Source of the DNA: Planctomycetota bacterium
Lineage (GTDB): Bacteria; Planctomycetota; Phycisphaerae; Sedimentisphaerales; Anaerobacaceae
NCBI GenBank assembly: GCA_022563885.1
Contig: JADFMM010000018.1
Coordinates: forward strand, 1 to 41,468
Length of the DNA stretch: 41,468 bases
Direction: 5' to 3'
This document shows, in pieces, positions 23,442 to 41,468 of the stretch. The position numbers and the translations under genes are program-made. Each line of letters opens with the position of its first letter. The stretch's first letter is position 1. The notes under the pieces are model-generated. The model was not told where the DNA came from. It saw nothing but the letters and a program-made list of their open reading frames with translations, and searched no databases.

Positions 23442-25211
23442 TCATCCTACTTTGCGTCGATGGTAGAGCATGCATTCTGCCAACAGGATCAGCAGGGCCA
23501 GTACGGCCAGTATCACCGAGATGGGCCATCCGCGATTGAGGGGCCGACTGGTGTCCGAGACAGCGTCGTTGTTCAGCAGGGTCTCCGCTCGGGCAAAGAG
23601 GTCCACCGCCAGCGGCCAGCGGCCCGAGCTATTGGACATCTCATAAAAACCGAGCTTGCGTACCGGCCCGAAGCTGGCCGCGGTGATTTCTATGGCTTTC
23701 TCATCGGCGTGGTGACTGATCCGGGTGGGCTCCTCTTCCTTCGCCTTGGGGATGGGGATGACCGAGCCCACGGCATAGGCGGCCGGCATGTCACCCTGTC
23801 GGCCCATCAGGTCGCGGGCGGCGTTGTAGACCAACACCGGAAACCAGGCGCTGTAGTAGAACTCCGATTCGCCGGGATCCATGTTGACCACGACGACGCT
23901 CCGATCGCCGCGCCTCAGCTTGTATATCAGGGGCACGCCGTCGGAGGTCTCCAGCAGCAGCACGCTCTCCGCCGGTCGCTCTAGGCGTCGGGCGCCGACG
24001 AAGGGCAGAGACTCGAAGTCACAGTGCTTGAGAATGGGATGATCGTCGATCACGTATTGGGGCATCACATCGTCCAATTCCTCGCCGAGTTCTGTCCACC
24101 AGGGACTCGAGCCCTGCGGTGCAAAGAGCACCACCCGCGCGGCGTCGGGCATCTCGCCCTTGGCCAGGACGACGTCGGCATTGCCGTCTACCAGGGCCAG
24201 GTCGCCACTGGTCTGGGCGAAGGCAAAGACGCTGTGTTCCAGGAAGAAGGCGTCCCGGGCCTGGACCTCGACCGTCACCGGCCGTTTCGGCGCGACGACC
24301 AGATAGGCGAGGTTGTCCTCCGCCAGGGCATCCTCCAGATCGATTTCCACCCGCCACTGTCCCTCTCCTCCGGCTTCAATCGTATAGAGTTCGGGTTTAT
24401 TGATGCCGGGTTGTATCGTCACCGGGATGACCTTGACGGTCTGCCCCTGGGGTCCATACTTGACCAGAATATCGGTCTCTACCGGGGCCTGGTAAGAGGA
24501 GGCCAGTCGGAAGTAGAGGGACAGACGATAGGGCTGTGTTGCAAGCGCTTGGATGTCACAGGCCACCAGGCCCACATTGTCCTGCCGCGTGCCCACCTTG
24601 AGCAACTCGATGCGTCCCGGAACGGCTTCCCCCAAGCCCGCCCCGTCACTGATGAGAATGATGCGATACCGGTCCGTGCCACCTTGTTCCAGAGACAGCG
24701 CGGTCAGGGCCCTTTCCTGCAGCGGACAGGCAGACGCTTCGACGCGATCCAGGGCCTCCATGAGCGTACGTGGATTGGTGGTGAAGTGACTGTGGAACTG
24801 GACATCCCAGGCCACGGCGGCAATCGCCGCCTGCTGATTGGCGCCGAGACTCCGCACGATTTGGGTGGCCACTCCTTTGGCCAAGGCCAGTCGTGTCTGC
24901 CCCTGATCCCGCGCATTCATGGACGCGCTGTTGTCCACCAGCAGCAGGAGATCTTTGCGTTCGTCCCCCGCGAATTCCGGGGCGCAGAGGGCGAAGACGA
25001 CGGCGAGAAAGGCCAACAGCATGAGCAAGAGACTGAGCAGGTCCCGCAGTTTTTGGAAGAGACTGCTGCTCCGTTTCTGGTCGAACAGGGCTTGCCACAG
25101 GAAATAGGCCGTGGTGGGCTTGCGTCGAGGACGCAGCTTCAGGAAATAGACCGCGACCAGGGGCATCAACCCCAGCAGGGTCCAGAAGAAAATCGGAAAG
25201 AGGAATGTCAC
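23442..25211 (-). CDS. BatA-like VWA-domain membrane protein
   Basis: The 589-residue protein begins with the BatA N-terminal domain: a membrane segment (FFWTLLGLMPLVAVYFL), KLRPRRK, then a second membrane segment (LLSLLLMLLAFLAVVFAL) and APEF. A VWA domain follows with a MIDAS motif LLLVDNSASMNARD (about residue 90). The long middle region is beta-rich, and a last membrane helix (VILAVLALLILLAECML) with a basic tail ends it. BatA-family proteins act with MoxR ATPases and DUF58 proteins at the inner membrane. It starts with GTG at 25211, overlapping the DUF58 stop by four bases (GTGA), so translation is coupled. Confidence 0.88.
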   Translation of the reverse strand: MTFLFPIFFWTLLGLMPLVAVYFLKLRPRRKPTTAYFLWQALFDQKRSSSLFQKLRDLLSLLLMLLAFLAVVFALCAPEFAGDERKDLLLLVDNSASMNARDQGQTRLALAKGVATQIVRSLGANQQAAIAAVAWDVQFHSHFTTNPRTLMEALDRVEASACPLQERALTALSLEQGGTDRYRIILISDGAGLGEAVPGRIELLKVGTRQDNVGLVACDIQALATQPYRLSLYFRLASSYQAPVETDILVKYGPQGQTVKVIPVTIQPGINKPELYTIEAGGEGQWRVEIDLEDALAEDNLAYLVVAPKRPVTVEVQARDAFFLEHSVFAFAQTSGDLALVDGNADVVLAKGEMPDAARVVLFAPQGSSPWWTELGEELDDVMPQYVIDDHPILKHCDFESLPFVGARRLERPAESVLLLETSDGVPLIYKLRRGDRSVVVVNMDPGESEFYYSAWFPVLVYNAARDLMGRQGDMPAAYAVGSVIPIPKAKEEEPTRISHHADEKAIEITAASFGPVRKLGFYEMSNSSGRWPLAVDLFARAETLLNNDAVSDTSRPLNRGWPISVILAVLALLILLAECMLYHRRKVG

Positions 25212-26074
25212 GCAACCAGCCCCCCTCGTCGTAGGATGCCCTGTATCACCTCCTCGAAGGGGACCTCGGTCGTCGTCGAGACCAGGCCGATGCCCTGTTT
25301 GGCGCAGAACTGCTGCAGGCCCGCGTTCCAGTCCGCCACGGCCTTCTCATAGGCGGCGGCCTCGCGGCTGGTCACCGTGATCCGACGGCGCTGGCCCGTT
25401 TCGACACACTCCAATTCCACATCACCCTTCAAGTGACAGCGCCGATCCTGCTCATCCTGGAGCTGGAGGCAGAAGACATCGTGCTTGTGCCATTTGAGAA
25501 ACTGAAGACCCTCCGCGAAGCCGCCGGGACAGAAGAAATCGGAGATCAGCAAGACCATGCCGCGCTTAGGGTGCCACTGCGCCAGGGACCGCGTGGCCTG
25601 TGTCAGGTCGGTGTCTTGGCCGAAGGTGTCCGCAGCCTCCAAGGCCCGTAGGACCTCCAAGGTCTTACCCCGGCCCAGGGTCGGGCGGGCGATGGATTTC
25701 AACTCGTGGGCCATGCCATAGATCACGACCTTGTCCATGCTGTGCAGGGCAATATAGGCCAAGGCGGCCGCCAACTGCTGGGCATAGGAGAACTTGCTGG
25801 CCATGGAGGGGCTGGCGTCCAGGAGGATATAGATGGTGACATCTTCCTCCAATTCGAACAGCTTGATCATCAGCTGCTCCAGACGCGCGTACACCCGCCA
25901 GTCGATGGCACGGTGGTCGTCTCCGATCGAATACTCACGGTAGTCGGCGAAGGTCACGCCGACGCCCTTCTTGGTGCTCTTGCGATCGGCCTGCAGCGTC
26001 CCTCCCAGGACCTTGCGGGCCAGCAGGTAGAGCGATTCCAGGCGGCGGATGAAAGCTGGGTCGGTTAGGAGCAT
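25208..26074 (-). CDS. DUF58 protein (VWA-like)
   Basis: A 288-residue cytoplasmic protein with the DUF58 signature: GDDHRAIDWRVYARLEQLMIKLFELEEDVTIYILLDASPSM, in which the DASPS segment is a MIDAS-like motif. The N-terminus LESLYLLARKVLGGTLQADRKS is also typical. DUF58 proteins are almost always encoded between a MoxR-type ATPase and VWA proteins; they are probably adaptor or substrate proteins of the ATPase, but the molecular role is not settled. It is separated from moxR by 120 bases that contain a nested palindromic repeat, unlike the tight junctions elsewhere in this cluster. Confidence 0.92.
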   Translation of the reverse strand: MLLTDPAFIRRLESLYLLARKVLGGTLQADRKSTKKGVGVTFADYREYSIGDDHRAIDWRVYARLEQLMIKLFELEEDVTIYILLDASPSMASKFSYAQQLAAALAYIALHSMDKVVIYGMAHELKSIARPTLGRGKTLEVLRALEAADTFGQDTDLTQATRSLAQWHPKRGMVLLISDFFCPGGFAEGLQFLKWHKHDVFCLQLQDEQDRRCHLKGDVELECVETGQRRRITVTSREAAAYEKAVADWNAGLQQFCAKQGIGLVSTTTEVPFEEVIQGILRRGGLVA

Positions 26075-26088: not shown

Positions 26089-26199
26089 CATGGCCGGTCG
26101 CTTAAGGGACCGGCCATGAATAAGTTGGACAATTTGGAGTCCAAGATGGGGTGCAATTGGGCATTCAAAAGTCCAAGTTATTCCTTGCCGGTCCCTAAG
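26089..26199. repeat. Nested palindromic repeat between the MoxR and DUF58 genes
   Basis: Two inverted repeats overlap. The first is a perfect 11-bp palindrome, 26089-26099 (catggccggtc) with 26108-26118, loop of eight bases. The second has long imperfect arms, 26101-26128 and 26173-26199, agreeing at about 23 of 28 positions; both carry the gggaccggc core. The whole can fold into alternative hairpins within the polycistronic mRNA. It does not have a T-run, so it is not a simple terminator. It resembles a REP/MITE-like intergenic element inserted in an operon. Confidence 0.7.
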
Positions 26200-27199
26200 C
26201 CCCCATGGCCAGTCGTTGGCGGTTCATGATGGTGCGAATCAACTGGTCGGCCGTGATGCCTTCGGCCTCTCCTTCGAAACTCAACACCAGCCGGTGTCGC
26301 ATGGCCGGCACGGCCACGGAATCGATGTCTTCGGTGGAGACATGGAAACGGTCCGCCAACAGGGCGCGTACGCGGGCGGCGCCCAGCACCGTCTGGGCCG
26401 CTCGGGGTGAGGCCCCATGCCGAACGTACTTCTTGATGTCCTCCGAGGCGCCGGGGTCGTTGGAATGTGTCCCTCTCACCAGGCGCACCAGGTAGTCTTG
26501 AATGGAGTCGTCAATCGGGACCTCACGGACGGTCCGGCCCATGCGGAGGATGTCCTCTCCGGTCGCCACGGGCTCGATGGCCGGTTCGCTCGTTCCGCCG
26601 GTGCGACGCAGGATCTCGATGAATTCGTCGTGCGAAGGCATCTCGACGTGGAGCTTGAAGAAGAAACGGTCCAACTGCGCTTCGGGTAAGGGATAGGTGC
26701 CGTCCTGTTCGATGGGATTCTGCGTGGCCAGGACGAAGAAGGGTTTGTCTAAGGCACGTGTGGTCCCGGCGACGGTCACCGACTTCTCCTGCATGGTCTC
26801 CAGCAGGGCGGACTGTGTCTTGGGTGTGGCGCGATTGATCTCATCCGCCAGCAAGATGTTGCAGAAGACCGGCCCCGCTTCGAATTGAAAGACCTTCTCG
26901 CCGCCACGTTCCACCAGGATGTTCGACCCGACCACATCGGCGGGCAGCAAATCGGGCGTGAATTGGATCCGCTTGAACTGCAGATGAAGTGCATTGGCAA
27001 AGCTGTGCACGAGACTCGTCTTGCCCAGGCCGGGCACGCCTTCCAGCAGCACGTGTCCCCCACAGACGATGGCGCAGAGGACGTCCTCCACCACGGTCTC
27101 CTGTCCCACCATGAATTTCTGCACTTCGCCCTTAATAGCGTCGAAAGTAGCCCTGAAATGCTCGACCGACTGGCGGGCGGACTGCTCATTCATCGTCAT
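26195..27199 (-). CDS. MoxR-family AAA+ ATPase
   Basis: A 334-residue AAA+ ATPase. Walker A is GVPGLGKTSL (about residues 54-63), Walker B is ILLADEINRATPKTQSALLETMQE, sensor 1 is VLATQNPIEQDGTYPLPEAQLDRF, and the C-terminal lid contains GASPRAAQTVLGAARVRAL. MoxR ATPases are chaperone-like proteins that act with VWA and DUF58 partners on membrane or periplasmic complexes. The start overlaps the end of the preceding gene by 14 bases; a second ATG six bases later is equally possible. The gene is followed by the nested palindromic repeat. Confidence 0.95.
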   Translation of the reverse strand: MTMNEQSARQSVEHFRATFDAIKGEVQKFMVGQETVVEDVLCAIVCGGHVLLEGVPGLGKTSLVHSFANALHLQFKRIQFTPDLLPADVVGSNILVERGGEKVFQFEAGPVFCNILLADEINRATPKTQSALLETMQEKSVTVAGTTRALDKPFFVLATQNPIEQDGTYPLPEAQLDRFFFKLHVEMPSHDEFIEILRRTGGTSEPAIEPVATGEDILRMGRTVREVPIDDSIQDYLVRLVRGTHSNDPGASEDIKKYVRHGASPRAAQTVLGAARVRALLADRFHVSTEDIDSVAVPAMRHRLVLSFEGEAEGITADQLIRTIMNRQRLAMGA

Positions 27200-28823
27200 T
27201 CCGGGTGTACTCTCCGATCTGGTGAATGTTCTCGAAGTAGGCCTTGACGCCCGACTTCACCGCCTGGGGCACATCTTCACGCCGCACGAAGGATTCGACG
27301 CTCCGCCGAAAAGACTGCGGAGTACGTCCTGAAACGGTGGTCGATGTGCCGGCGCCATCCGATGCCGTTTCGGTGGTCTTGGAGGATGGGCCCCTACCCT
27401 TGATGCCCTTGAGTTGGGTACGGTATCCGTCCAGGGTATCCGCGGCGGGCTCGTTATTGATGCTGTCGCTGGCGCCGTTGCCGGCATCCAGGCCACCGGC
27501 ATTGGGGGAAGAGCCCAAGCAAGTGCCGGGCTTGCCCAAACAGCCCTGGCATTGGGACAGGGCCTGAAGGAGTTTTTCGATTTCGGACTGCGCTTGACGT
27601 TTGGCGCCCATCTTCTTGAGGTACTGACCCAGATTCGCCAGGCTTTGATTGGCTGCCTGGCTGAAGGACTGAGCGTCACCTTCGTTGCCCTGCTGGGCCT
27701 GCCGCTCGGCCTCACTCAGGGCCTTGTCGTAGTCTCGGGCCGATTGATCCAAGGCCTGGGCCAATGCCCCCGCTTCACTGGACCCGTCACCCTCGGCGCC
27801 CGCTTGGCCCGAAGACCCGGAGCTACCACTGGAAGCACCGGACTGGCCGGACCTGCGGCCCGCGGCACTGCGCCTCGCCTCGCTGCTCATCCGACCCGAC
27901 ATCTCCTTGAGCCGGTTCAGTTGCTCTCGCTGTTCCCTCAATGAGGCCCGTGGATCCATCTTGAATGCGTCCAGCTCCGCGGCGGCCTGCTTGTACTCGC
28001 GCTCCACCAACCGATTCCCCAGCGCTTTCGCTCGGTCCTCTTTCCGGAGTTCTCGGCCCATGCGATCCAGGAGCTGCTGCTCCTGGCGCTGGCGGAGCTT
28101 GGCGCTGGCACTGTTGAGCTTTCGCTCCAGGCGGGCGTATTGCCGCATGGCCTCCTTCAGATCGGGCGTCTTTTCCAACTGAGCCATCATCTCGCGGATA
28201 CCCTCTAACTCCATCAGCCTTGCCAGCTCTTCTGAATCCACATCTCGGGTAAGCTCTTCGAGAAGATCCTTCAGCACCTTGTTGATGGCCTCGGTGTCTA
28301 GCAGCGTCTCCTGCGCCAACTCGGCTGCCGCGACCACCTTCGGGCTGTCCGCCTTGAGGGAAAGGAGTCCCGAAGACAGCAGCATCACCAGCCCGAGCGT
28401 CAGGGTGCGTTTGGGCCAGGCAAAGGGGATGTCTTTGACAGAGACGCGTTGCAATTGTGTCTGTGCATGATGGGCCTGCAGGTCGTAAAAACCCTCACGA
28501 TGACCCGCGCGCCGAAAGCCGTGATAGGAGCGCAGCGTGTCCTTCAGATCGAAATGCCCATCCGCCCGGCGGGCCGCCTCGGCCAGACTGTGCCGGATCA
28601 GCCCCCAAACGCCCGATCCCACCAGGAGGGCCCCCACCAGGACGACGGGATACCACAAGGGCGGCACATGGTGACCGCGGAGCACATAGGTCAGGGCCAC
28701 GACCAGCAGGACGCAGCCCGCGCAGGTCATGCTCCTGATCAGCAGCGTCAGCCAGAGGTGGTGATTGAAACGCCGACGCACATCACGGAGGAACTGATCT
28801 ATCTTATCCGAACGCTGTTGCAT
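27186..28823 (-). CDS. Membrane protein with long coiled-coil region (DUF4175-like)
   Basis: The 545-residue protein begins with a short cytoplasmic head and two membrane segments (LWLTLLIRSMTCAGCVLLVVALTYVL, then WYPVVLVGALLVGSGVWGLI). A third hydrophobic segment (LTLGLVMLLSSGLLSL) precedes about 200 residues of charged, Gln/Glu/Arg-rich helix, likely coiled coil. A Gly/Ser-rich linker (GASSGSSGSSGQAGAEGDGSS) and another Gln-rich helix follow, then a C-terminal domain ending near RREDVPQAVKSGVKAYFENI. I associate it with DUF4175-like proteins found beside MoxR loci, with moderate confidence. The ATG at 28823, seven bases after the giant TPR stop and preceded by taggt, is preferred to an upstream start inside that gene. 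It probably anchors or organises partners at the membrane. Confidence 0.75.
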   Translation of the reverse strand: MQQRSDKIDQFLRDVRRRFNHHLWLTLLIRSMTCAGCVLLVVALTYVLRGHHVPPLWYPVVLVGALLVGSGVWGLIRHSLAEAARRADGHFDLKDTLRSYHGFRRAGHREGFYDLQAHHAQTQLQRVSVKDIPFAWPKRTLTLGLVMLLSSGLLSLKADSPKVVAAAELAQETLLDTEAINKVLKDLLEELTRDVDSEELARLMELEGIREMMAQLEKTPDLKEAMRQYARLERKLNSASAKLRQRQEQQLLDRMGRELRKEDRAKALGNRLVEREYKQAAAELDAFKMDPRASLREQREQLNRLKEMSGRMSSEARRSAAGRRSGQSGASSGSSGSSGQAGAEGDGSSEAGALAQALDQSARDYDKALSEAERQAQQGNEGDAQSFSQAANQSLANLGQYLKKMGAKRQAQSEIEKLLQALSQCQGCLGKPGTCLGSSPNAGGLDAGNGASDSINNEPAADTLDGYRTQLKGIKGRGPSSKTTETASDGAGTSTTVSGRTPQSFRRSVESFVRREDVPQAVKSGVKAYFENIHQIGEYTRNDDE

Positions 28824-28830
28824 TGAGCAC

Positions 28831-31800
28831 CTACTTCCCTTTCTTCGCGGACGCATCTGCTTGGGTCTTTGCCAGCCACGCCCGCCGCTCGTCTTTCATC
28901 TTGGCCGGCCAATCTTCCGTTTCGATGCCTTGCACGTAGCGCAGCGCCTGCTCGGCACGGCCCTGTTCTTTTAGGAAGGCACAGTAACCCAAACTCTGAG
29001 GCCAAACTTGACTCTTCTTGGTGCAGCCCTCGATGCTACGCAGCCAGGAGGCCTCGGCTTCTTCGATTAGATCATGCTTTGCCTGAATCTTTGCGATGTT
29101 TTCCCAATTCCTGTGAACTGGCTTCGCCAACCCCACCAGTTTAGCGCCCTGGGCCAAGATTTCTTTCTCGGTCAAGACACCATACTCCCAGAGACAGAAG
29201 ATGGGGCCTTCTCTGGTGTTGTGTTGGTTGAATCGCTTCTTGACCTGGCCCAGGGCGAAGTACCGTCTGACTGTGGCGATCTTCTGCTTTCGCTTCTGGT
29301 GGCCGGTCAAGCTGGCGAAGGCCTTGAAGGTCGCCTCGACGTCCCTATAGTATCGGAATTGACGCTCGAGATCATCTGAAATCTGTGCAGACGCCGAGTC
29401 GAGCTGGTCCTCCCTGCCGGCGAGCACATGAAACAGCACGCAATAGTCCCAGAGACGTGCACGCTCCTGTTGAGTATAGTAGCGTGAAGAAGTCCCCACC
29501 AGACGTGCGGAGAGACTGGCCATTGCCTCCATCAGTTCCGGAGTCCAGTCGGATTCTAGCGTATCACCGAATTGCCGCAGGTGTTTGGCCATCTTTTCCA
29601 GCATCTTTTCGTGCTCGTAGCCCCGGCGGCTGGACGCCTTCTCCCGAAGCGCGACCACGCTCTCGATCCCGCTCAGAAACACGCTGGCGTCGCCTCGCTT
29701 TAGGGCCTCGGCAGCGTAGGCAAGGACCAGGCTAGACTTGACCTCCCGTTCTGACTCCAGGGACAGACTGCAGACTGCCCCCAAGTCGATCCCCTGGGCC
29801 GCCACGGCCAGCGCGTCGCCAACCTGGGCCAGAGCCTGATCCGAACCGGCCAGGACGAGCAGGGCCCTCTGCTTGACACCCTCGTTCGAGAATGAAACTT
29901 CCGCAAACCGCTCTGCAAGGTCGACCAATCGCTCCTCACGCGTTCTACTGGGTGGATCCTCTGCCGGCCCATCCGCCAAGGCGGACAGGAGCAGCTCGCC
30001 GTAGTAACGCAGATCGGCCTCGGTGATCTCCGCCAGGCATGCGGACAGTTTGGCCTCGAAGGCGGCCGTGTAGGGATGGGAGCTGCTGCGATCCACCTCT
30101 TGCCAGCCCGTCCGCATGAATGTTCTCGCGTGGTCCGACTGGCCATGTTCTACTAGCAGCGCCCAGGCATCGAGGTCGGTGGCAAGACCCTGTTCTCCAA
30201 CTAGTTGTTTGATCGAGTCCGTGTCATCACACCTGAGATTCATCTCCAGCAGTGCCAGTTGCACGCGCTGATCGTATGTCTTTGAGGGGGTCGGGTAGGG
30301 GGATCTGGAGCGGATCCGCCGCGAACGCGCCACGCGGCGCAGATAGGCGTGATACGCCTCGGTGACCTTGGCGACCTCTTGTCGCCACGCCGATGTGTCC
30401 GCGAGGCGGGCTGCCTGCGACAAGAGTTTGTGGAGATAGTCTTCAGGCAGTGAGGTCTCTTTTTGCCAACCTCGGGCCAGCAGAGACATTCCCTGCAATA
30501 GCATGGCGTCGTTCCATAGCCGCTTGTCCCAGTCCAGTAAATTGTGCAAGGTCAACAGACGCCAAGGTACCGACAGGCTCTCGTCGGCGAGGACATGTTG
30601 ATAGTGGGCGACCAGGGGAGCCAGACTGTCTACCACATCCTCTCGAGGGTCTCCCGGCTCGCGTTCATCGGCGGATTCATCGCCGAGCCGTCTCAGCCTG
30701 GCATGCACCTCGATCTCCTTGGCGAGCCCCGGGTAGGCACCCGTGGAGGATTCCGCTTCGGCCCAGCGTGTGATCGCATCCAGCTCCTCGGCCGTGAGGT
30801 CCGACTGGAAGACTTTCTTAAAGCAGGGCGTCACGCCCGAGAGGTTCCCTGGGCCGAAGGTCCCTCCCAGACGCTGATATAGCTTTTGCATTTGCTTGAG
30901 TCGATCGGGCTGTTTGGAATCTTCAAGTTCTCTGTACAGTCTGGAGACGGCGTCCTGGTGGCGACGTAGCGTGTATGTCCGCAGTGGGGCAACGGGGGAG
31001 TTCACATCGCGCACCAGGTCCGCTGCCAGCGCCAATAGACCCAAACTTGAAGACCCGCGTCTGAAGACGTTGTCCACGAACCCTGATGGGGGCGTGTAGT
31101 ACCACTGTCCCTGTTGAGCCGCGCGCTCCACCAGGTCCAATGCCTTCAGTAGAACCTCCTTCGCCCGCTTTGGGTCCGACTCTGAGACCGCATCGATCGT
31201 CTTGGCCACATAACGATCGAACTCATACTCCTCTATCTGGAGAGACCGAATATTCTTGGCCTTCATTATTCTGGCCACATCGCCTCGGTCATTGCCGGCC
31301 CGGAGTGCCGTCAGCCAGGCGTGAGCCGCCCGGTTCTGCTCGCTCCAGGCCTCCACTCGATCGGGCTTCATATTGCCTAGCGTATCCGCAACCATGAAGG
31401 CCAGCTCTCTCTGCCGCTTTTCGTCGCCTGCCTCGATGCCTTGCCTCGCCGCAGCGAGGGTCTCGTAAATGGCCAGGGCCGGGTCCTCCGAGAGATGGGC
31501 GCGGAGCAGTCGGACACCCAGGGTTTGCGGTTCATCGCGTAGTCGCATCGAGAGTGCCGCCTGCAAGGCGCGGCGTTGATCGTCACCCGTCCCTGTTAAC
31601 TGGCGAATGAAATAGGCGTAGACGCTATTGTATTTCATCCCGGCATAGGGAAGCGTGGCAAAGCCATCGGCCTCGGCCAGAAAGGGGGAGGCCCGCAGGA
31701 AGCCCATCACCTCGTTGGGATCGGTCTGCCGCGTGACACTCCGCATGACGCTCTCGATACCGGAGCGAATCTCCCGCGCCAGGGCCGGCACCTCCTCGGC

Positions 31801-34800
31801 ATAGCCGGCCATCAAGAAAAAGAGGTCCCTGTTCTTGGCCACGCCTCGTAGTAATTGGAAGCATTGATGAATGCGCTCGTTGGGGGTATTCGACGACATG
31901 CGGCGACGGTCATAGTGTTGCTCAATATGCCGCGCTCGCTGACCCTTGGGTCCGATGTACAGGGTGATAATCGCCTCCAGGAAACGCTCGGTGGCCGCGC
32001 CGTCCTGTTCGGCAAGCCGTGTCAGGCAGTGTTGGATGTGCCACTGCGGCGCCGACCGTGGCTGCCTCGGGTTCGGTTTCAAACCTCTCTCAATCTGATC
32101 CAATAGAAAGGTCACCACGTCAACGCTCAAGTCCCGCTCGACATGGGCATCGACCACCCAGACGAGGACATCCTCACCGCTCAACATCGAATCCGCCGCT
32201 CTGTTCGACTTGGGCACGGCTTCCAACAGCCCCTGCGCGGCCTCCAAGAACTCATCCGCGGGCACGGTGTAGAGGGCGGCCATCTGTTCGAGCTGCGTCG
32301 CCTGATCTTGCTGGCTATTCTGCCGCAGTCTCGCTGCAAACTGGGGCACGAAGGTCTCGAAGTTTTCCTTCTCCAAACTGTCCCGCAGGAGAAACGCGAT
32401 GGGGTCTACCGGTCTACCTATCTGGTTGCTGGAGGAAGAGGAGTAGAAGAACGTCTGTCGGAAGCCTTGGGCGGCGCGCCCGCGATAGGGCCGCGCCCGT
32501 AGCAGGGCCTCCTTGGCCAGTGCGGGGAACTCATCGGTGATCGCCTGGCGGGCCTCGGCTTCCGCCGCCAGACGGGCGAAGCCCTGGATGGACAGTTGGG
32601 GGATGTGCAACATGGTCCGGCAGAGGTCGTTGTGAATCGCGCGACGTCGTTCGCCCATCTCTCTGTCGTTGCGGCTGTTTTCCGATTCGGCTTGAAAGAG
32701 GTGGCCTAGCTGCATAGCTCGACCATAGCTGGGCTGCTCGATCGTCTCCAAGGCCCTGGTCACCCACTGCAGGGAGGTGCGATTGGGATCCTCGATGGTT
32801 TTGACGTAGGCAGCCAAGACCTCCACAATGTCCAAGGCCTCTTTGGTCCCCTCTCGTCGAAAACGACCCTGAATAAGATTGGCCAGGGTGGGGGCCACCT
32901 GGTCCATGGTCCGCTGGTCAAGGAATCCGAGCTGGGTGGCGCCGGCCTGGGGATCCTCGGCCCCGAGCAATAGGGCCAGTTGCACCCGGGCCGTCACATC
33001 CTTGGGCCGTTTGGAGAGGACCGTTTCGTAGGCCTCCCGGGCCTGCTCCCGTTTGTCCAGTATCTCACAGATGCGGGCGAATTGATTGAGTTTTCGGACA
33101 CTGTTGGTGTCGCCGGGATCGGCCAGCGACAGGAAGGCATCCATCGCCTTGTGGACGCTGATGAGTCCCACCAACGCCTCCGGGTCCGTCTGGCCCCCGA
33201 AGATATAGTTCTGTTGCTGCGGATAGAGGCTGCTGAGGGCCAGGTTGCGGAGATCGGTGAGAATCAGACGCAGGGCCGCATCGCGCTTGCCTTTTTCAAA
33301 CAGGTCCTGGATACGCTGATGGGGGGCGCTGCGGGGGGTGCCACGCACTATCCTCGTCGGACCCCGGCGAGCGGCCGTGATTGGGGCGGCCTGTTTCGCC
33401 AATTTGGCGGCCTCCTGGGTCAAGCCCAGGGTCTCCATCGCCTCCGCCAATTCGGTCCGCTGGTCCTGAGACATGCGATTGCGACGCAGGCGCAGGGCCG
33501 CCTTTTGGCCCACACTCACCTCCGTTGTAGACTCGTTGGGATCCAGCTCGATCGCGTAGGCCACGATGGCCGCATCCAGGGTCCGCCGGTGATTGGAGTC
33601 CATGGGTAGGAAACGGGCCTTTTCCAGTAGTGCCAGCGCCGTTTGAGGGTCTTCCAGCTCCGTGGCCACAGTCGCGGACAAGACGAAGGCCGTCAGTGAG
33701 GGTGACTCCGCCGCCACCAGCGCATCGAGTCGTTCCTTTGCCCTCTTTAATTCGCCGGCGGCCAAGAGCATCACGATTCTGAGCGTGGGGTCCATTGCCG
33801 TGTCGATGTGCTTGAGGAGGCGTTCGGGGTCGAGCCCCAGGCCCTCGGGATTGGGCAGATAGGGATTGCGTTGCCCGGGAAAGATCAGTTGGAGCACGCT
33901 GCTCGGGAACTTGGGCAGTTGTTGTGGGGGAAAGGGCAGCGGCTTGATCAAGGCATTGCTAGAGGAGCGCCCGAAGGACATGGCCTGCCTGGCTAGATTG
34001 GAACCCATCGGATCGCTCCGAACCTCCTCGTCCAGGAACTGCACGAATTCGGTGAGGTCCTCATTCTGGGCCAGACTGGCAGCGACGCGGGGAAACAGGA
34101 ACTGACGGTAATTGCCCTTGGCTTTCACCGCAGGATACCAGCTCAGCAGTTTCTCACTCAGAACTGCACGAATCTCGGGTGATAACCCGGCGCTTGTCGT
34201 GGGCCCCTGCAAGACGGATGTCACGCCGAGCAGTTCATAGATGCCCGGATCGGAAACCAGATCCAGCACCTCTAGGGATCTCTTCAGGACATTGGGATCG
34301 GATCCCTCAATGGCTCCATAGTGGAGTCCCGCCAGGTAGGCCAAGCGGGGCCGATCCTCCGCGAATAGCGTGAAGACGCCTTTGTACCGTTCTTCGTCGG
34401 TCCCCGGAACACTCATGCGGTGGATCATCCACACGGCCTGGACCGCTTCGTTGCTGGGGTAGTCCGCCGCTATCGTGTCGATGGATTGGTGGAGATTCTG
34501 CAGGCCCGCCGCACTTAGAGCCATGAGGACCTGCGGGTTGCTGACGCCTGCCAGTTCCAGACTCGACTGAACACGGCTCTGCTCTTGCTCATCCATGAGG
34601 TTGCCCAACGCCAGGATGTGACACACTGAGAAGCCGGAGAGGTCATCGATGGTCGGCGGCAGCGGGACGGTGGTCCCCGTTCCCGGGCGACCGGTCATTA
34701 CGTACGACACGCGTCGCCCGGTCTGTCGGTATTGAAACACACGGTGATGGAGATACTGCGTCTCCATCAGTTCCATGGCCTCCGCCGGCAGCAACTCCGT

Positions 34801-37671
34801 CAGACTGAAGCCCGACTGTGCCCAGGGCGAGGGGATGGGTTTTTCGGTGTTGCCGGGAATCTCTTCGGTCATGGACAGCAGCGCAAGAAAGGCCTCCAGG
34901 GCCTGCGTGTCTCGCCCATCCTCTTCCAGGGCCACGGCATGGAGATAGTGGAGTTTGTAGTCCGAAGGGTGTTGATCCAGGACGCCTTCCAGGAAACTGA
35001 TCACCATGGACCAGTTCTGGCCGGACGCCATGGCATCGGCTATCGCCGCGGCGTCACGGGGCGTCATGGCCGCGCCCCCGGCCAGGTCGAAGAGCAGGCG
35101 GTAGCCCGCTTCTTCGTCGCCATACTGAATGTGGATTTTGGCCATCTTCTGGCGTGTCTTCTGCGTGTTGTCGAGAGGGAGGGCCCGTGTCAGGGTTTCC
35201 AGCGCCTGCTCCCAGTCTCCCTCCTGCTCTTCGATGCGGGCAATTTCGTAGAGGAGGCCCAGGTCTTTGGATTGAATGCGGGTCGCTTCGAAGAGGGCCT
35301 GGCGACGTTCCTCGTACTGATCCGTCTGGCGATACATCTCCGCCAGGGCCAGACAGGGTACGATTGAGGAAGGATTGTCGCGCTTGCGTTCCTTCAGTTT
35401 CTCTATCACGGTCTCACGCGACCCATCCGCCTGGGCGGCATAGCCCATGTCTCGTATCCAGCGAATCTTGTCGCTCATCTCGCCGGCATTCTCATAGAGA
35501 CGCCAGTAGATGCGTCGGGCATCGCCGGAGCGATTGGCACGGGTATAGAGCGTGGCCAGACGCGAGAGGATCTCCGCGCGTCCCTCAAACTCCTGATCGG
35601 CCCGGCGCAGTACGCCAACGGCGTCGCTTTCTCGGCCCAAATCGGCGAGCAATAGCGACTCCGTCAACCAGGCCTGGGCATTGCCCGGCGAATTCCTCTT
35701 CCAGGTCGGGATCCAGGCCAGGGCTTTCTCGGGGTCGTTGGCCTTGCGGTAGAGTTCGACCAGCTCACGGACATAGAGAGAATCGCGGCCGCCGGTCTGA
35801 GCCAGCAGCGCTTGGGTTTTTTCGGCGGCTAGGGACCAGTCCCGCCGCAGGCGACAGAGGCGAATCTGTTGTTTGAGTGCCGTTTCCCGATGCGGCTCGC
35901 TCACTTGGTCCAGGAGGACATCCGCTTCGGTGCTCATGAACACCGAGTCATAGAGTTCCGACAACAGACAAACCTGCTGGATGGAGCGAGCCTCTCTGGC
36001 GGCCAGCTCATCGATCAGCGTGTTTGTCGTGTTGCCGCGCTTGGCGACGGCGACTACCTGGGCGACTGCCGTTCTGATCTGGGAAAAACGCTCGGCGATC
36101 TCCAACTGACGGCGCGCCCAAGTCAGGGTCCTGTCGTAGTGCTTCAGGCGCAGGCCGGTCTGACAGAGGGTCGCCAGATAGGTCACGTCATCGGAGTAGT
36201 CGTCATACTGGGACTCGAGCCACTGCAAGGCCAGTTCTCTTTGCTCACGCCGGCTGACTGCCTGGGCCGCCCGGACCAGCATTGCAACGTCCCCCGAGTG
36301 GGCGATCTCCCGCCACAGTGCCAGGGCCTCTTCTTGCTTCTCGATGCGAAAGAGGAATTGGGCGTAGGCCTCCTTGGCACTCAGACTATCGGGCCAGGTC
36401 TCGGTGAGTTGTTGGTAGACCCGGGCCGCCTGATCGTTGAGTTTGTAGCGCTCGAGGATCCGTCCGGCGCGTAGAAAGAGATACTCGGTTTTCTGCGACT
36501 GCGAAACAAAGGTCTGCAGCGCCTCGCCTGCCTGATCGTCTTGCCTGTTCTGATGGTGCAACTCCGCCAATTGGACCAGCAACTCCCGATCTTCGGGGTG
36601 CTGGGTACTCATTTGGGTCAGGAGATCGATCGCCTTGCCCAATTGCTTGGCCTGTGCCAATGCCGCCACATAGGCCTGCTGATGGGCCTTGTCTCCCGGT
36701 GTTACGCTGAGGATTTCCTGATAGAGCGTCAAGGCCTCCTCATGCCGGTTCATCTGCAACAAGAGGCGAGCCAGGCGTTTTTTCAATCCCACCCGCTGTG
36801 CATCCGTTTTAATGAGCTTGGCGTAAAAGTCGCGTAGGCCGGAGAGGTTGTCCTCGCGTAGAAAGACCCGTTCGATTTGGGCCGTGATCTGATCCTCAAG
36901 CCAAGTGCCATGGCCTACCAGGCTCAGACAAGCCGCATAAGCGTCTAAGGCCTCTTCGTTCTTGCCGCTGTATTGGAGGATGTCACCCCGGCGAAGTCGC
37001 CGCATGACCGTTTCGTAGCTGTCTTTGGTGATCGCCAGGAGTTGATCGCTAGTGGCGACGGCGGCCTGGTAGAGTCCCTCGGCCAGTTGCAATTCGATCA
37101 AATCCTCGTAGAGGTCCTCATCCTGTGGGTTGTCTTGCAGCAACTGCTGCCAGACGGCTTGGGCCTTTTCCGTCTGTGTGGTGCGGACATAGAGCTTGCC
37201 CAGAAGTTTGGCGCATTTCTCCGACAGATTGCCACTCATCTGCAGCGTGCGGGCCCTTTCCAAGTCGGAGATGGCGCTGTCGAAATCCAGCGTGCGCAAC
37301 TCGGCCTGGGCCTTGAGGTAGAGCACCTCTCCATTCTCAGGGTCGCGCTCGGCCGCTTCCCGGTAGAGCCGCAGGGACTCTACGTGTTTTCCCTGGCGCT
37401 CAAAAAAGGAGGCCAACACCAGGTGATGGGTCACATTGGGGTTGGCAGCGAGCTGGCTATTTAGATACTCCTCCAAGGCCTCCAGGGTGCCGGTGTCCAA
37501 CCAGGCATCGTAGAAACGATCGAAGAGTTGCACACTTCCGGGGCGTTTGCTCAACAGCGTGTAATATCGCTTCGCCCGGACATCGATCTCCTGGTCCTGG
37601 CAGAGACCGATTCCCACCGAAATCATGACTAGGAGACAACAACTCGCACAGAAAGAACCACGTTTGACCAT
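28831..37671 (-). CDS. Giant exported TPR/helical-repeat protein
   Basis: At 2,946 residues this is the largest gene in the window. It has a signal peptide (MVKRGSFCASCCLLVMISVGIGLC before QDQEID). About residues 30-1000 contain many TPR-type repeats (for example EEALTLYQEILSVTPGDKAHQQAYVAALAQ, and EKAQAVWQQLLQDNPQDEDLY). The rest is helical and repeat-like without clear TPR signatures. Residues 1699-2946 are clearly paralogous to the visible part of the neighbouring gene (37734-41468). A strong ribosome binding site (aaaggag) lies seven bases before the ATG. No enzymatic motif is seen, so it is probably a scaffold or a large interaction surface outside the cytoplasm. In classic Bat loci small TPR proteins (BatB, BatC, BatE) occur; this may be their enlarged counterpart, which is inference from context. 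Confidence 0.88.
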   Translation of the reverse strand: MVKRGSFCASCCLLVMISVGIGLCQDQEIDVRAKRYYTLLSKRPGSVQLFDRFYDAWLDTGTLEALEEYLNSQLAANPNVTHHLVLASFFERQGKHVESLRLYREAAERDPENGEVLYLKAQAELRTLDFDSAISDLERARTLQMSGNLSEKCAKLLGKLYVRTTQTEKAQAVWQQLLQDNPQDEDLYEDLIELQLAEGLYQAAVATSDQLLAITKDSYETVMRRLRRGDILQYSGKNEEALDAYAACLSLVGHGTWLEDQITAQIERVFLREDNLSGLRDFYAKLIKTDAQRVGLKKRLARLLLQMNRHEEALTLYQEILSVTPGDKAHQQAYVAALAQAKQLGKAIDLLTQMSTQHPEDRELLVQLAELHHQNRQDDQAGEALQTFVSQSQKTEYLFLRAGRILERYKLNDQAARVYQQLTETWPDSLSAKEAYAQFLFRIEKQEEALALWREIAHSGDVAMLVRAAQAVSRREQRELALQWLESQYDDYSDDVTYLATLCQTGLRLKHYDRTLTWARRQLEIAERFSQIRTAVAQVVAVAKRGNTTNTLIDELAAREARSIQQVCLLSELYDSVFMSTEADVLLDQVSEPHRETALKQQIRLCRLRRDWSLAAEKTQALLAQTGGRDSLYVRELVELYRKANDPEKALAWIPTWKRNSPGNAQAWLTESLLLADLGRESDAVGVLRRADQEFEGRAEILSRLATLYTRANRSGDARRIYWRLYENAGEMSDKIRWIRDMGYAAQADGSRETVIEKLKERKRDNPSSIVPCLALAEMYRQTDQYEERRQALFEATRIQSKDLGLLYEIARIEEQEGDWEQALETLTRALPLDNTQKTRQKMAKIHIQYGDEEAGYRLLFDLAGGAAMTPRDAAAIADAMASGQNWSMVISFLEGVLDQHPSDYKLHYLHAVALEEDGRDTQALEAFLALLSMTEEIPGNTEKPIPSPWAQSGFSLTELLPAEAMELMETQYLHHRVFQYRQTGRRVSYVMTGRPGTGTTVPLPPTIDDLSGFSVCHILALGNLMDEQEQSRVQSSLELAGVSNPQVLMALSAAGLQNLHQSIDTIAADYPSNEAVQAVWMIHRMSVPGTDEERYKGVFTLFAEDRPRLAYLAGLHYGAIEGSDPNVLKRSLEVLDLVSDPGIYELLGVTSVLQGPTTSAGLSPEIRAVLSEKLLSWYPAVKAKGNYRQFLFPRVAASLAQNEDLTEFVQFLDEEVRSDPMGSNLARQAMSFGRSSSNALIKPLPFPPQQLPKFPSSVLQLIFPGQRNPYLPNPEGLGLDPERLLKHIDTAMDPTLRIVMLLAAGELKRAKERLDALVAAESPSLTAFVLSATVATELEDPQTALALLEKARFLPMDSNHRRTLDAAIVAYAIELDPNESTTEVSVGQKAALRLRRNRMSQDQRTELAEAMETLGLTQEAAKLAKQAAPITAARRGPTRIVRGTPRSAPHQRIQDLFEKGKRDAALRLILTDLRNLALSSLYPQQQNYIFGGQTDPEALVGLISVHKAMDAFLSLADPGDTNSVRKLNQFARICEILDKREQAREAYETVLSKRPKDVTARVQLALLLGAEDPQAGATQLGFLDQRTMDQVAPTLANLIQGRFRREGTKEALDIVEVLAAYVKTIEDPNRTSLQWVTRALETIEQPSYGRAMQLGHLFQAESENSRNDREMGERRRAIHNDLCRTMLHIPQLSIQGFARLAAEAEARQAITDEFPALAKEALLRARPYRGRAAQGFRQTFFYSSSSSNQIGRPVDPIAFLLRDSLEKENFETFVPQFAARLRQNSQQDQATQLEQMAALYTVPADEFLEAAQGLLEAVPKSNRAADSMLSGEDVLVWVVDAHVERDLSVDVVTFLLDQIERGLKPNPRQPRSAPQWHIQHCLTRLAEQDGAATERFLEAIITLYIGPKGQRARHIEQHYDRRRMSSNTPNERIHQCFQLLRGVAKNRDLFFLMAGYAEEVPALAREIRSGIESVMRSVTRQTDPNEVMGFLRASPFLAEADGFATLPYAGMKYNSVYAYFIRQLTGTGDDQRRALQAALSMRLRDEPQTLGVRLLRAHLSEDPALAIYETLAAARQGIEAGDEKRQRELAFMVADTLGNMKPDRVEAWSEQNRAAHAWLTALRAGNDRGDVARIMKAKNIRSLQIEEYEFDRYVAKTIDAVSESDPKRAKEVLLKALDLVERAAQQGQWYYTPPSGFVDNVFRRGSSSLGLLALAADLVRDVNSPVAPLRTYTLRRHQDAVSRLYRELEDSKQPDRLKQMQKLYQRLGGTFGPGNLSGVTPCFKKVFQSDLTAEELDAITRWAEAESSTGAYPGLAKEIEVHARLRRLGDESADEREPGDPREDVVDSLAPLVAHYQHVLADESLSVPWRLLTLHNLLDWDKRLWNDAMLLQGMSLLARGWQKETSLPEDYLHKLLSQAARLADTSAWRQEVAKVTEAYHAYLRRVARSRRIRSRSPYPTPSKTYDQRVQLALLEMNLRCDDTDSIKQLVGEQGLATDLDAWALLVEHGQSDHARTFMRTGWQEVDRSSSHPYTAAFEAKLSACLAEITEADLRYYGELLLSALADGPAEDPPSRTREERLVDLAERFAEVSFSNEGVKQRALLVLAGSDQALAQVGDALAVAAQGIDLGAVCSLSLESEREVKSSLVLAYAAEALKRGDASVFLSGIESVVALREKASSRRGYEHEKMLEKMAKHLRQFGDTLESDWTPELMEAMASLSARLVGTSSRYYTQQERARLWDYCVLFHVLAGREDQLDSASAQISDDLERQFRYYRDVEATFKAFASLTGHQKRKQKIATVRRYFALGQVKKRFNQHNTREGPIFCLWEYGVLTEKEILAQGAKLVGLAKPVHRNWENIAKIQAKHDLIEEAEASWLRSIEGCTKKSQVWPQSLGYCAFLKEQGRAEQALRYVQGIETEDWPAKMKDERRAWLAKTQADASAKKGK

Positions 37672-37733
37672 CTAGATGCTCCTTTGCCTCTAACTGTAAG
37701 ATTCACTATCTTCTCACAGGGATGACGCTTGGG

Positions 37734-40700
37734 TCAAGGATTTGTCACATTGTTTTTGGAGGCGGGTGGGGTGTCTGCCAGCTTTGTTACCCACTCATGC
37801 CGCTGGTCCCTGTACTTCTTAGACAATCGTCTTGGATCAACTTTCTGAACGTACAGAAGCGCCATATCCGATTGGCCGTGCTCTCGAAGAAACCGCGCAT
37901 AGGCCAGGGTCTGCCGCCAGAGCTGGTCAGGTATACGACAGGCTTCGATGCTTCTCCGCCAGGAGGCGTTTGCCTCATCCAATCGACCATGTTTTGCCTG
38001 AATCGTGGCCAACCTCCCCCAATTCCTGTCGGGGTGTATCCCGAGGTTGATCAACTCGGCGCCTTCCTTCAAGATCTCCTCCTCGGTCAAGACGCCATGT
38101 TTCAATAGGCTGTACAGAGGACCAAAACTTGACTTTGATCGCCTAAGCCCAAGCTTGACAAAATCCAATGCAAAGTACCGCTCGATGGCATGAGTCTTGC
38201 GCTTGAGATCCATGTCACTAGATAACTTGGCGAGCGCTAGGAAGGTATCAGTCCGGTCCTTGTGGTAACCGAATTCATTCCAACGACTGCGTGGAACACG
38301 AGCGCGTGCCGAGGCGAGCAGGTCTTCATCGCCGGCCAGGACATACATGGCCACACAATGGCCCCAGAGACGAGTGCGTTCCTGATTGGGGGTGTGCCGC
38401 GCCGGGCTCCCGGAAAGTCGTCCGCAGAGAAGAGCGAGGTCTTCCAATTGTGCGGGCGCACAGCGAAAACCGGGCGCCGCAATGATAACGCGCAGACGCC
38501 TTGCCATCTGCTCCAGCACCCTCTCGTACTGGCTGCTACGCCCTCGTTTTTGCTTCTCGCTCTCGGCGATGACACTCTCAACGGCGCGCAGGAACGCGTC
38601 TGGATCCCCCTGAATGAGAGTCGCCCTGGCGTACGCCAGGGCCAACTCCGACTGGCTCACCCGTTCGGGCCCATTGGCCGGGTTTACGGCGGCGCCTAAA
38701 TCGATCCCCTTCGCCTCCTCGGCCAGTGAGTCAGCGACATGCGGAAGCGCACGATCCGACTGAGACAGAACGAGCAGCGCCGTCTGCCTCAGCGTACTGT
38801 CCGGAAATGAGACATCTCTATAGCGCTGGGCGAGCCCCTCCAGTCTGGCGTCACGCGAGTGGATGGGTGCATCTCCCTCGGCGCCATCCTTTAGAGCAGA
38901 CAGCAGTAGTTCACAATAGTAACGCACATCCGTCTCACCCATACTGGCTAAGCATGGCTTCAGATGGCGCTCGAACTCTAGCGTGTAGAGACGGGAGCTG
39001 ACTCGGTCGACATTCCGCCACCCTCTGCGCATGAGTTTGCGCGCCTCGTCTGTTTTTCCGTATTTGATGAGAAGGGCCCAAGCGTCGAGATTCGTAGCGA
39101 GCTCATCTTGTTCGATGAACCGGTTGAGCGAATCGGCGCGAGCGCTCCTGATACTCATCTCCAACAGGGCCAACTGCACCATTGGACTGTAGTTCCCATG
39201 CCCGGAAGCGTCATGGCTCGAGCCCGAGCGTTGCGTGCGTGACAAATCTGGCTGAAAGGCGTGATAGGCTGCTATGATCTGTCCGGCCCGCTGCTGCCAC
39301 GGGGCTGCATCGGGCAGACTGGCCGCGTGGGATAGGAACTCCCTAAAATAGTCGTCTGGCAACGCCATCTTGCTCTCCCAAGCCCTGGCCAGGAGGGACA
39401 TTCCCTGCAAGATCATCTCATCGGACCAAATCCGTTTGTCCCATCCCAGCAGATTCTCCAAGGTCAAGAGACGCCAAGGCAAAGAGAGGCCGTCGTCGGC
39501 TAGAACCTTGGAATAGTGAGTGGCAATAGGCCTCGCAAGCTCGCTCTCGTCTTCCAAGATTTGCTGATGGCGTTTCGCCCTGGCTAGGTGAAGGTTGGCA
39601 TGCACCAGGATCTCTCTCGCCAGCTCGGGATAGGTCCCAGTTGATGTTTCGGTTTCGAACCAACTGCTGATCGCCTCAAGCTCCTCGGCCGTCAAGCTCG
39701 TTGGTACTACTTCCCTTAGGCATAGCGTCACGCCGGAGAGATCTCCCTGACCCAGAGTCGGCCCCAGCCGGTGATAGAACGTTTGCAGTTGCTTGAGCCG
39801 ATCAGGTGATTGCGGATCCCTACACTTTCGATGCAGTTGATGGACGGCGTAGTAATGTTGCCGTAGTATTTGGGAACGGATGGGCGCGATGGGTGCGTTA
39901 ACATCACGAATGAGATCCACCGCAAGCGCCAATCGACTCAGATTAGACCTTCGTACGGAGAGCAAATTGTTTACCAGGTCGGAGGGTGAAACATGGCTCC
40001 ATTGCCCCAGCCGTCGCGCATCTTCGATCAACTCCACCGATTTCAAGAGAACGTCCTTGGCGCGATTGGGATCCGACTCCAAGAGGAACTCCATCATTTT
40101 TGTGACATGTCGCTCAAACTCACGCTCTTCGACTTGCATGGACTTCAGGGTCTTCGCCTTCAACAGCTCTGCGACGTCGCTTCGATCGTGGCCCTGGCGC
40201 AGCGCTTGCAGCCAAGCATAGCCATCCTTGGCATGCGCACTCCAGGCCGGCACTCGGTCGGCTCTTACCTTGCCCATGGTGTCGACCACCATAAAGGCCA
40301 ACTCACGCCTCAGCCCTTTGTGGGCCCTCTCAATGGCATCCTCGCTCACCGAGATGACTTCATGAACGGCTTGCGCTCGATCCTCCGAGAGATAGGCCAG
40401 CAGAAGTCGGACGCCGAGCGTGTTGGGTTCTTCGGCGAGTCTCTGTGACAGCGATGCCTGCAGGGCAGCACGTTGAGCGTCTCCGGTCTCAATCACCTGC
40501 CGAACGAAGCTGGCGTAGACACTCTTGTGAGGCAAGCCCGCTAGGGGCAGCGTCGTAAAGTCCTCCGCATCCTCTAGGAATGGCGATTGCCTCAGGAAGG
40601 CCATGATCTGGTTGGGATCGTTCCCTGCAGTCACAGTTTTCAGTGCCCGCTCGACTTCGGGCCGAAGTGTTTGAGACAATGCGGGCATCTGCTGGATATA

Positions 40701-41468
40701 GCCGACCATGACGAAGACCAAAGCCTCGTTGTCAGCGACAGTCTGCAAAAAGCTAAAACAACGCTGTATGCGGTCATTGGGCGTATTCGACGACCGTCGG
40801 CGACTGTCATAGTGGGTTTCCACGAATCGCGTTCGTTGGTCTGGAGGGCCGATGTAGAATGTGACGACGGCATCCAGCAAGAGACGGGCGCCGGCCACAT
40901 TGAGTTCTGCGAGTCGCCCGAGCGCATGTTGGATGTAGGACGGGGGCCGAGACCTCCTTTGCATTTGGTTGGGCCCAAAGTCCTTTCCTATCTCGTCTAG
41001 CAGAAGAGGAACCAGATCAACGGACCGATGACGATCAACATGGGCGTCCACTATCCAGGTCAAAAGATCTGCCCTCGTCATGAGGGATTCGGCGTATTTG
41101 TTCTGCTTGGAGCTGAATGTCATGAGACCACGAGCAGCCTTTACAAAGGCTTCGTCCGACACCTGGCGGAGCGCGGCCATGCGTTCGAACCGCAGCGCTA
41201 ATCCTTCTTGCGTGTTTTCCCGAAGGGACACGGAAAACTCGGGAACGAAGTCCGAAAAATCGCCCTTTTCTAAGCTGTCGCGCAAGAGAAACTCGATTGG
41301 ATCGACGGGCTGGTGAGTCTGACTTGTGCTGGAGTACCTAATAGTGCGCGTTGTCATAGGGCGGATCGTTCCGCGGTAGGGGCGCGCGTGCAGCAGGGCG
41401 CGCCTTGCCAGGTCGGGAAATTCATCGGTGAGCGCCCCGCGGGCCTTGGCCTCGGCGGCCAAACGAGC
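37734..41468 (-). CDS. Second giant TPR/helical-repeat paralogue, truncated by the window edge
   Basis: The frame is open from the right edge to the stop at 37734 (1,244 residues). The first in-window codons read Ala-Arg-Leu-Ala-Ala-Glu-Ala, matching residue 1699 onward of the next gene, so the true start lies outside. Strong identity runs throughout, for instance PVDPIEFLLRDSLEKGDFSDFVPEF against PVDPIAFLLRDSLEKENFETFVPQF, RRSSNTPNDRI against RRMSSNTPNERI, and LGVRLLLAYLSEDRA against LGVRLLRAHLSEDPA. The two genes are 62 bases apart on the same strand, so this is a tandem duplication that has diverged. It probably shares the export signal and TPR N-terminus of its partner, which cannot be seen here. 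Confidence 0.9.
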   Translation of the reverse strand, partial: ARLAAEAKARGALTDEFPDLARRALLHARPYRGTIRPMTTRTIRYSSTSQTHQPVDPIEFLLRDSLEKGDFSDFVPEFSVSLRENTQEGLALRFERMAALRQVSDEAFVKAARGLMTFSSKQNKYAESLMTRADLLTWIVDAHVDRHRSVDLVPLLLDEIGKDFGPNQMQRRSRPPSYIQHALGRLAELNVAGARLLLDAVVTFYIGPPDQRTRFVETHYDSRRRSSNTPNDRIQRCFSFLQTVADNEALVFVMVGYIQQMPALSQTLRPEVERALKTVTAGNDPNQIMAFLRQSPFLEDAEDFTTLPLAGLPHKSVYASFVRQVIETGDAQRAALQASLSQRLAEEPNTLGVRLLLAYLSEDRAQAVHEVISVSEDAIERAHKGLRRELAFMVVDTMGKVRADRVPAWSAHAKDGYAWLQALRQGHDRSDVAELLKAKTLKSMQVEEREFERHVTKMMEFLLESDPNRAKDVLLKSVELIEDARRLGQWSHVSPSDLVNNLLSVRRSNLSRLALAVDLIRDVNAPIAPIRSQILRQHYYAVHQLHRKCRDPQSPDRLKQLQTFYHRLGPTLGQGDLSGVTLCLREVVPTSLTAEELEAISSWFETETSTGTYPELAREILVHANLHLARAKRHQQILEDESELARPIATHYSKVLADDGLSLPWRLLTLENLLGWDKRIWSDEMILQGMSLLARAWESKMALPDDYFREFLSHAASLPDAAPWQQRAGQIIAAYHAFQPDLSRTQRSGSSHDASGHGNYSPMVQLALLEMSIRSARADSLNRFIEQDELATNLDAWALLIKYGKTDEARKLMRRGWRNVDRVSSRLYTLEFERHLKPCLASMGETDVRYYCELLLSALKDGAEGDAPIHSRDARLEGLAQRYRDVSFPDSTLRQTALLVLSQSDRALPHVADSLAEEAKGIDLGAAVNPANGPERVSQSELALAYARATLIQGDPDAFLRAVESVIAESEKQKRGRSSQYERVLEQMARRLRVIIAAPGFRCAPAQLEDLALLCGRLSGSPARHTPNQERTRLWGHCVAMYVLAGDEDLLASARARVPRSRWNEFGYHKDRTDTFLALAKLSSDMDLKRKTHAIERYFALDFVKLGLRRSKSSFGPLYSLLKHGVLTEEEILKEGAELINLGIHPDRNWGRLATIQAKHGRLDEANASWRRSIEACRIPDQLWRQTLAYARFLREHGQSDMALLYVQKVDPRRLSKKYRDQRHEWVTKLADTPPASKNNVTNP

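Follow-up and report, generated by a model that had tools for sequence, protein, structure and literature searches.

The stretch analysed here (the window) is an entire contig of 41,468 nucleotides (JADFMM010000018.1, or G000:C288 in our genome set) from a planctomycete metagenome-assembled genome (MAG) of 6.5 Mb, to which MAG B36T1B5 is very closely related. On its minus strand lie two adjacent genes for giant proteins, called here Giant B and Giant A, followed in order by genes for a membrane coiled-coil protein (memCC), a MoxR ATPase, a DUF58 protein, a BatA-like VWA protein and a protein with two VWA domains (two-VWA). This pairing of giant TPR proteins with a MoxR/DUF58/VWA cluster appears to be a real, conserved and undescribed variant composed of parts of known kinds; no description of it was found in the open-access literature, subscription journals being outside the scope of the search. 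We read the locus as an envelope machine of the Bat-like MoxR-VWA kind, in which a giant TPR protein is a dedicated subunit, and attribute to this reading a probability of about 0.55. Bat/MoxR clusters are widespread. In the Planctomycetota, gene order and co-occurrence apparently bind a partner of very large size to the cluster, where it has been retained. It provides a large, taggable and presumably periplasmic handle on what MoxR/Bat machines act upon, and related genomes give a clean presence/absence contrast.

Gene order and co-occurrence in the Planctomycetota

The spacing between the cluster genes of the window is short or negative, as in an operon: 62 bases separate Giant B from Giant A and about 120 bases MoxR from DUF58, while the genes overlap at Giant A-memCC, memCC-MoxR and DUF58-BatA. 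The same-strand cluster listed in an earlier note, made from the window sequence alone, is intact. Pfam supports the identity of its last four members, whose motifs are also intact; memCC matches no Pfam family.

The full order (giant-memCC-MoxR-DUF58-BatA-two-VWA) spans at least nine Planctomycetota families. It occurs in the window and in G020, G037, G002, G093:C99, L017, G441, G115, G118, G109, G206 and G301, and partially in G001:C228. At other loci (G350, G398, G422, G247, G252 and G466:C306) the cluster is rearranged and a giant is its direct or divergently oriented neighbour. The giants are mostly 2,000 to 4,700 residues long, with one or two per paired cluster.

To identify giants we used a profile (A6) built from their first approximately 760 residues, with which giants score at least 149 bits (clear examples at least 235 bits) and generic TPR proteins at most 108 bits. 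Clear giants are present in 15 of the 279 sampled genomes, and 14 of these 15 also hold a two-VWA protein at 628 bits or more, a score reached in about 25 of 392 sampled genomes (binomial probability of the overlap 3e-16, the sampled genomes not being independent). When the two-VWA score is at least 740 bits, a giant is found in 13 of 14 genomes, compared with 0 of 18 comparison genomes that have generic MoxR clusters or none (Fisher 4e-8). The single genome of the 14 without a giant, G134, is 69% complete. This phylum-wide comparison upholds the association of a Bat-like cluster with a giant TPR partner that the earlier note had proposed.

The association does not extend to strict linkage, which is ruled out by giants located away from MoxR/VWA genes in five genomes (G000:C392, G001:C669, G093:C137, G450 and G358:C6). 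Nearly all such unlinked giants come from genomes in which the cluster is present too; G450 and G358 have no intact giant at the cluster and carry one elsewhere. Judged from these sequences, the special link suggested by the earlier note is real as co-occurrence and weakened as strict adjacency. At G450:C1:2901284-2903575, about 2.5 kb from the two-VWA gene, there is also a giant-like N-terminal stretch with one internal TAG stop. It is perhaps a decaying linked copy; the 4,266-aa giant of this genome lies 1.5 Mb from it.

Two further candidates were discarded. A 2,118-aa giant-like protein at a comparison MoxR cluster of G441 turned out to be an alpha-2-macroglobulin (L163:4178-10534) with a TPR-like N-terminal part; its gene adjoins one for a memCC-like protein close to this generic cluster. 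A 3,008-aa open reading frame (ORF) in G192 is separated from the cluster by about 13 kb or more, and that genome contains no clear giant. Several generic MoxR clusters (L158-L159, L156-L157 and L162-L163, from G275, G233 and G441) include what reads, by sequence, as a substrate-binding-protein-, permease- and ABC-ATPase-like set. It sits between the genes for a memCC-like protein (sometimes weakly recognisable) and a large VWA protein.

Anatomy, duplication and C-terminal variation of the giants

Giant A is hydrophobic at its N-terminus, and the giants of its relatives start with signal-peptide-like segments. The ORF of Giant B comprises 1,244 codons and lacks its 5' end, the gene being cut by the end of the contig; its missing part has no match elsewhere in the assembly. 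The idea of giant size and export for both proteins holds for Giant A (2,946 aa, with a putative signal peptide), while the N-terminus of Giant B lies beyond the contig.

Assignment to the TPR/alpha-solenoid class is provided by Pfam for residues 1-950 of Giant A (recognisable TPRs at about 40-950) and by AlphaFold2 for residues 740-1660 and 1747-2946. The first of the modelled regions is an all-helical solenoid (pLDDT 79) with only solenoids among its structure matches, and TPR-like sequence reappears near residues 1520-1590. The second has a pLDDT of 83, about 60 helices and almost no strand. Foldseek aligns this C-terminal half with HEAT/TPR solenoids from many unrelated machines (query-normalised TM-scores of 0.1-0.26), and the best VIA-align Z score, 10.4, is inside the background that the tool states for helical repeats. 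For this half, 13 homologues give no Pfam match above cut-off, and there is no match by sequence in the PDB. The TIGR02917 model (the XrtA/PEP-CTERM TPR protein PrsT) gives 118 bits against a cut-off of 312.

The C-terminal half is thus predicted to be a divergent, irregular alpha-solenoid and no new type of domain, a possibility that the all-helical model and the generic structural matches do not support. The earlier note had ranked this half highest, as the best candidate for undescribed biology, having recognised no domain in it. The predicted fold is ordinary, if divergent, and no other part of the giant is as dispensable. It is the least remarkable region by fold, and the MoxR/VWA link is the stronger finding.

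The proposed paralogy of the two giants is borne out: Giant B aligns with residues 1699-2946 of Giant A at 48% identity and 66% similarity (BLASTP, 1,163 bits), far above chance. A third, complete paralogue is present as a 3,007-aa open frame on G000:C392, with no adjoining MoxR/VWA gene. Comparison with the G001 orthologues gives ratios of nonsynonymous to synonymous substitution (dN/dS) of 0.25 and 0.35 for the N-terminal 1,960 and C-terminal 955 residues of Giant A. The corresponding values are 0.28 (C392 paralogue), 0.13 (memCC) and 0.09 (MoxR). Between Giants B and A the ratio is about 0.24 (with dS near saturation), and Giant B is therefore not a decaying copy. These values point to purifying selection on the giants and to locus genes that are real and maintained.

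Tandem giants are not peculiar to the genome of the window since they recur in two distant lineages. G206 carries two complete giants (2,910 and 2,935 aa, 40% identical) directly upstream of memCC; G252 carries a giant of 2,355 aa and a cut copy of at least 707 aa (37% identical), with a third giant 30 kb away. Within each tandem the pair is 37-48% identical, compared with about 20% to giants of distant lineages, so that duplication beside the cluster probably occurred independently and more than once. This also supports the duplication of the TPR part suggested previously. Giant B was not found in the near relative G001, where the contig begins at a transposase-like ORF (L046:1-711, G001:C190) located at the expected end of Giant B and 16 bases beyond the position that matches its stop codon. 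Loss, insertion of an insertion sequence or an assembly gap would each account for the absence.

Variation among relatives is concentrated in the C-terminal half which, from the sequences compared, is the most dispensable and length-variable part of the giant. The G037 and G002 giants retain only the first ~150 residues of the C-terminal module and end near 2,000 aa. The module is present as a single copy in C392, L017 and G441; in the 4,663-aa giant of G020 its 800-aa distal part occurs three times, and in G093 a ~620-aa part is repeated about four times, the last being partial. Other cluster-linked giants (G350, G398 and G247; 3,637-4,226 aa) instead end in DUF1581/DUF1583_N, together with DUF1583 in G350 and G398, and the G422 giant also holds DUF1583_N. 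These families are absent from the giants of the window, which carry more alpha-solenoid in their place, and DUF1583_N has no match in G000. In one lineage, in G283 (L136:9230-13609) and, judging by a very similar N-terminus, probably also in G338 (L140), a smaller exported TPR protein of 1,459-1,481 aa, possibly a short form of the giant, is encoded at the cluster after MoxR. In G283 this protein has a PQQ propeller at its C-terminus. The N-terminal TPR platform is common to giants throughout the phylum and the C-terminal modules are exchangeable, a layout suggesting that the giant acts as an adaptor. Elsewhere, in G382 (L178, G382:C1:3170001-3190000), five consecutive same-strand ORFs of about 900-1,944 aa contain DUF1583_N, apparently as a tandem paralogue array without a TPR giant.

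Relation to Bat loci and alternative explanations

The locus is better called a Bat-like variant, which would work like a Bat locus without recognised BatD/SH3 and with the addition of memCC and the giant. Bat (Bacteroides aerotolerance) loci, known from Bacteroides, Leptospira and Borrelia, combine MoxR, DUF58, BatA and BatB with TPR, BatD and SH3 partners. As in these loci, MoxR adjoins DUF58, and VWA membrane proteins of the BatA type and TPR proteins are present (PMC3557215, PMC5700661). MoxR and DUF58 are clearly matched by their Pfam families and adjacent, and the BatA-like protein, with an N-terminal pair of transmembrane segments and a metal ion-dependent adhesion site (MIDAS), exceeds the cut-off for PF07584 (25.9 bits). 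It shares the layout of its three hydrophobic segments (residues 3-21, 58-76 and 564-582) with Borrelia BB0173 (BatA), whose VWA domain has been shown to face the periplasm (PMC5700661). Giant A is the corresponding TPR partner, though a giant one. A scaffolding role in a membrane or periplasmic complex has been proposed for the TPR domains of Bat loci, and Leptospira deletion mutants had no phenotype with respect to growth, morphology or oxidative stress (PMC3557215).

There are also differences. In Bat loci the TPRs reside in a small protein or inside BatB; here they form a separate giant with a signal-like N-terminus. The present locus also has an additional protein, memCC, encoded between the giant and MoxR, and the second of its VWA proteins is larger, with a GATase1-like stretch. 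BatD and SH3/BatE families are absent from the Pfam and NCBIfam matches of the seven locus proteins, none of which (0/7) reaches an NCBIfam cut-off. The Leptospira BatA/BatB models are far under cut-off for the BatA-like protein, and TPR_BatC_Lepto gives 27 bits with Giant A against a cut-off of 175.

For location, docking, motor role and client we infer the following scheme. The giant is probably a scaffold outside the inner membrane, and its signal-like N-terminus makes the periplasm the simplest place for it. There, the conserved N-terminal TPR superhelix (residues about 40-950) would dock on the periplasmic VWA domains and/or memCC. The variable C-terminal part (elsewhere DUF1581/DUF1583, or a PQQ propeller in the smaller proteins) would extend outward and hold on to, or recruit, a client in the envelope. 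The giant may also span the periplasm or select substrates, as the earlier note proposed. MoxR and DUF58 would remodel or load the complex from the cytoplasmic side, driven by ATP, and duplicated giants could provide a second arm or client specificity. More tentatively, and on balance doubtfully, the locus might represent a phylum-wide, undescribed envelope machine of the Planctomycetota. In this, the MoxR/DUF58/VWA motor would drive a dedicated giant periplasmic solenoid reaching toward the outer membrane or surface via interchangeable C-terminal modules, with duplicated giants as heteromeric arms.

A number of points weigh against the subunit reading. Not one of the members has a known physical interaction, localisation or phenotype. 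The score cut-offs and the comparison genomes were chosen after the data had been seen. G104 (66% complete) has a giant and no two-VWA match at E <= 1e-60. About ten genomes with lower-scoring two-VWA proteins have no detectable giant and, in the G283/G338 lineage, the cluster-linked TPR gene encodes only about 1,460-1,480 aa; the giant is thus not required by every relative of the machine. The unlinked copies (C392, C669 and G093:C137) may have other roles. Finally, one point in favour of the reading, that distances between giants track those between two-VWA and between MoxR proteins (18 loci, r 0.92), is expected for any co-inherited genes and is no proof of contact.

The main rival makes the giant a client: MoxR/DUF58/VWA would form a chaperone dedicated to the folding, export or assembly of this envelope protein, which would then work elsewhere. 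We consider this unlikely, if a serious contender. MoxR proteins in general are regarded as chaperones, and co-occurrence without adjacency (G450, G358 and C392) fits a client as well as a subunit. A MoxR protein has been proposed to aid FN3 folding in the bifidobacterial PFNA cluster (pkb2, fn3, aaa-atp/MoxR, duf58 and tgm), which resembles the present locus in encoding a large, secreted, modular protein beside MoxR and DUF58 (PMC8430577). It differs in having FN3 (beta) repeats rather than TPRs, a kinase and a transglutaminase, and no described pair of membrane VWA proteins (PMC8430577). A fixed N-terminal TPR platform with variable C-termini is more adaptor-like than client-like; moreover, MoxR and DUF58 have no export signal and any contact with the periplasm must run via the membrane VWA proteins.

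It is improbable that the locus is a sensing or conflict system in which signals from outside or products of an attacker are captured by the variable giant and MoxR-VWA sets the threshold of response. MoxR-vWA pairs, joined by a variable third component, do form the core of described ternary conflict systems, including some from planctomycetes (PMC7159879), and the patchy distribution and variable C-terminal modules of the giants would suit such a role. The third component here, however, is an exported solenoid, and none of those described (VMAP, inactive STAND, FtsH or a vWA-fused beta-propeller) is among the Pfam/NCBIfam matches of the cluster. With 43.5 bits, the MoxR of the window exceeds the bpMoxR cut-off of 27 bits, but AAA_3 is a far better fit (209 bits). 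The genes evolve slowly (dN/dS 0.09-0.35) and are not diversifying. Six locus proteins were without a match in PADLOC, and an anti-phage system was rejected on this basis. Least probable, and already disfavoured, is that an ordinary TPR protein simply accompanies the cluster and has no part in its function: paralogues do occur away from it, but the order is held in at least nine families and recurs after rearrangement, and co-occurrence persists even where the genes are unlinked.

Features of the locus and neighbouring genes

Table 1. Coordinates of the locus features in the window, with the basis of each assignment
Feature	Coordinates	Strand	Basis
Giant B, second giant paralogue, C-terminal 1,244 residues	37734..41468	-	ORF and BLASTP against Giant A
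Giant A, putatively exported TPR/alpha-solenoid protein, 2,946 aa, start ATG	28831..37671	-	ORF, Pfam
Giant A putative signal peptide, residues 1-24	37600..37671	-	Hydrophobic N-terminus; relatives alike
Giant A N-terminal TPR platform, residues about 40-950	34822..37554	-	Pfam TPR, profile A6
Giant A middle alpha-solenoid (predicted), residues about 951-1746	32434..34821	-	AlphaFold2 (740-1660)
Giant A C-terminal extension module, residues 1754-2937, also in Giant B	28861..32412	-	AlphaFold2, relatives
memCC, membrane coiled-coil protein	27186..28856	-	Alignment A2, hydrophobic segments
MoxR AAA+ ATPase, Walker A and B intact	26195..27199	-	PF07726 (209 bits), PF17863
DUF58 protein, MIDAS motif DASPS	25208..26074	-	PF01882 (138 bits)
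BatA-like VWA protein	23442..25211	-	PF07584 (36.8 bits), PF13519
Two-VWA membrane protein	20873..23380	-	PF00092 (two stretches), PF07090, alignment A5

The memCC protein includes three hydrophobic segments, a coiled-coil and a Gly/Ser-rich part, and has a conserved C-terminal motif (REDVP..VK.GVK.YFE.IH). DxSxS MIDAS motifs are present in DUF58, in the BatA-like protein (as DNSAS) and in both VWA domains of the two-VWA protein. The latter has hydrophobic segments at residues 9-27, 35-53 and 814-832, and its GATase1-like stretch follows the second VWA domain.

Directly downstream of the cluster (18803-20562) are the genes for a prepilin-like protein, with an N-terminal methylation motif, and for a phytanoyl-CoA-dioxygenase-like protein; similar prepilin-like genes are also found near the cluster in G020 and L017. 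Further away, at 671-12327, genes for the urease alpha subunit, UreD and a UreG-like protein lie beside a urea/branched-chain-type ABC transporter. This is an ordinary urea-use locus, in which the transporter permease ORF includes a HEAT-repeat match.

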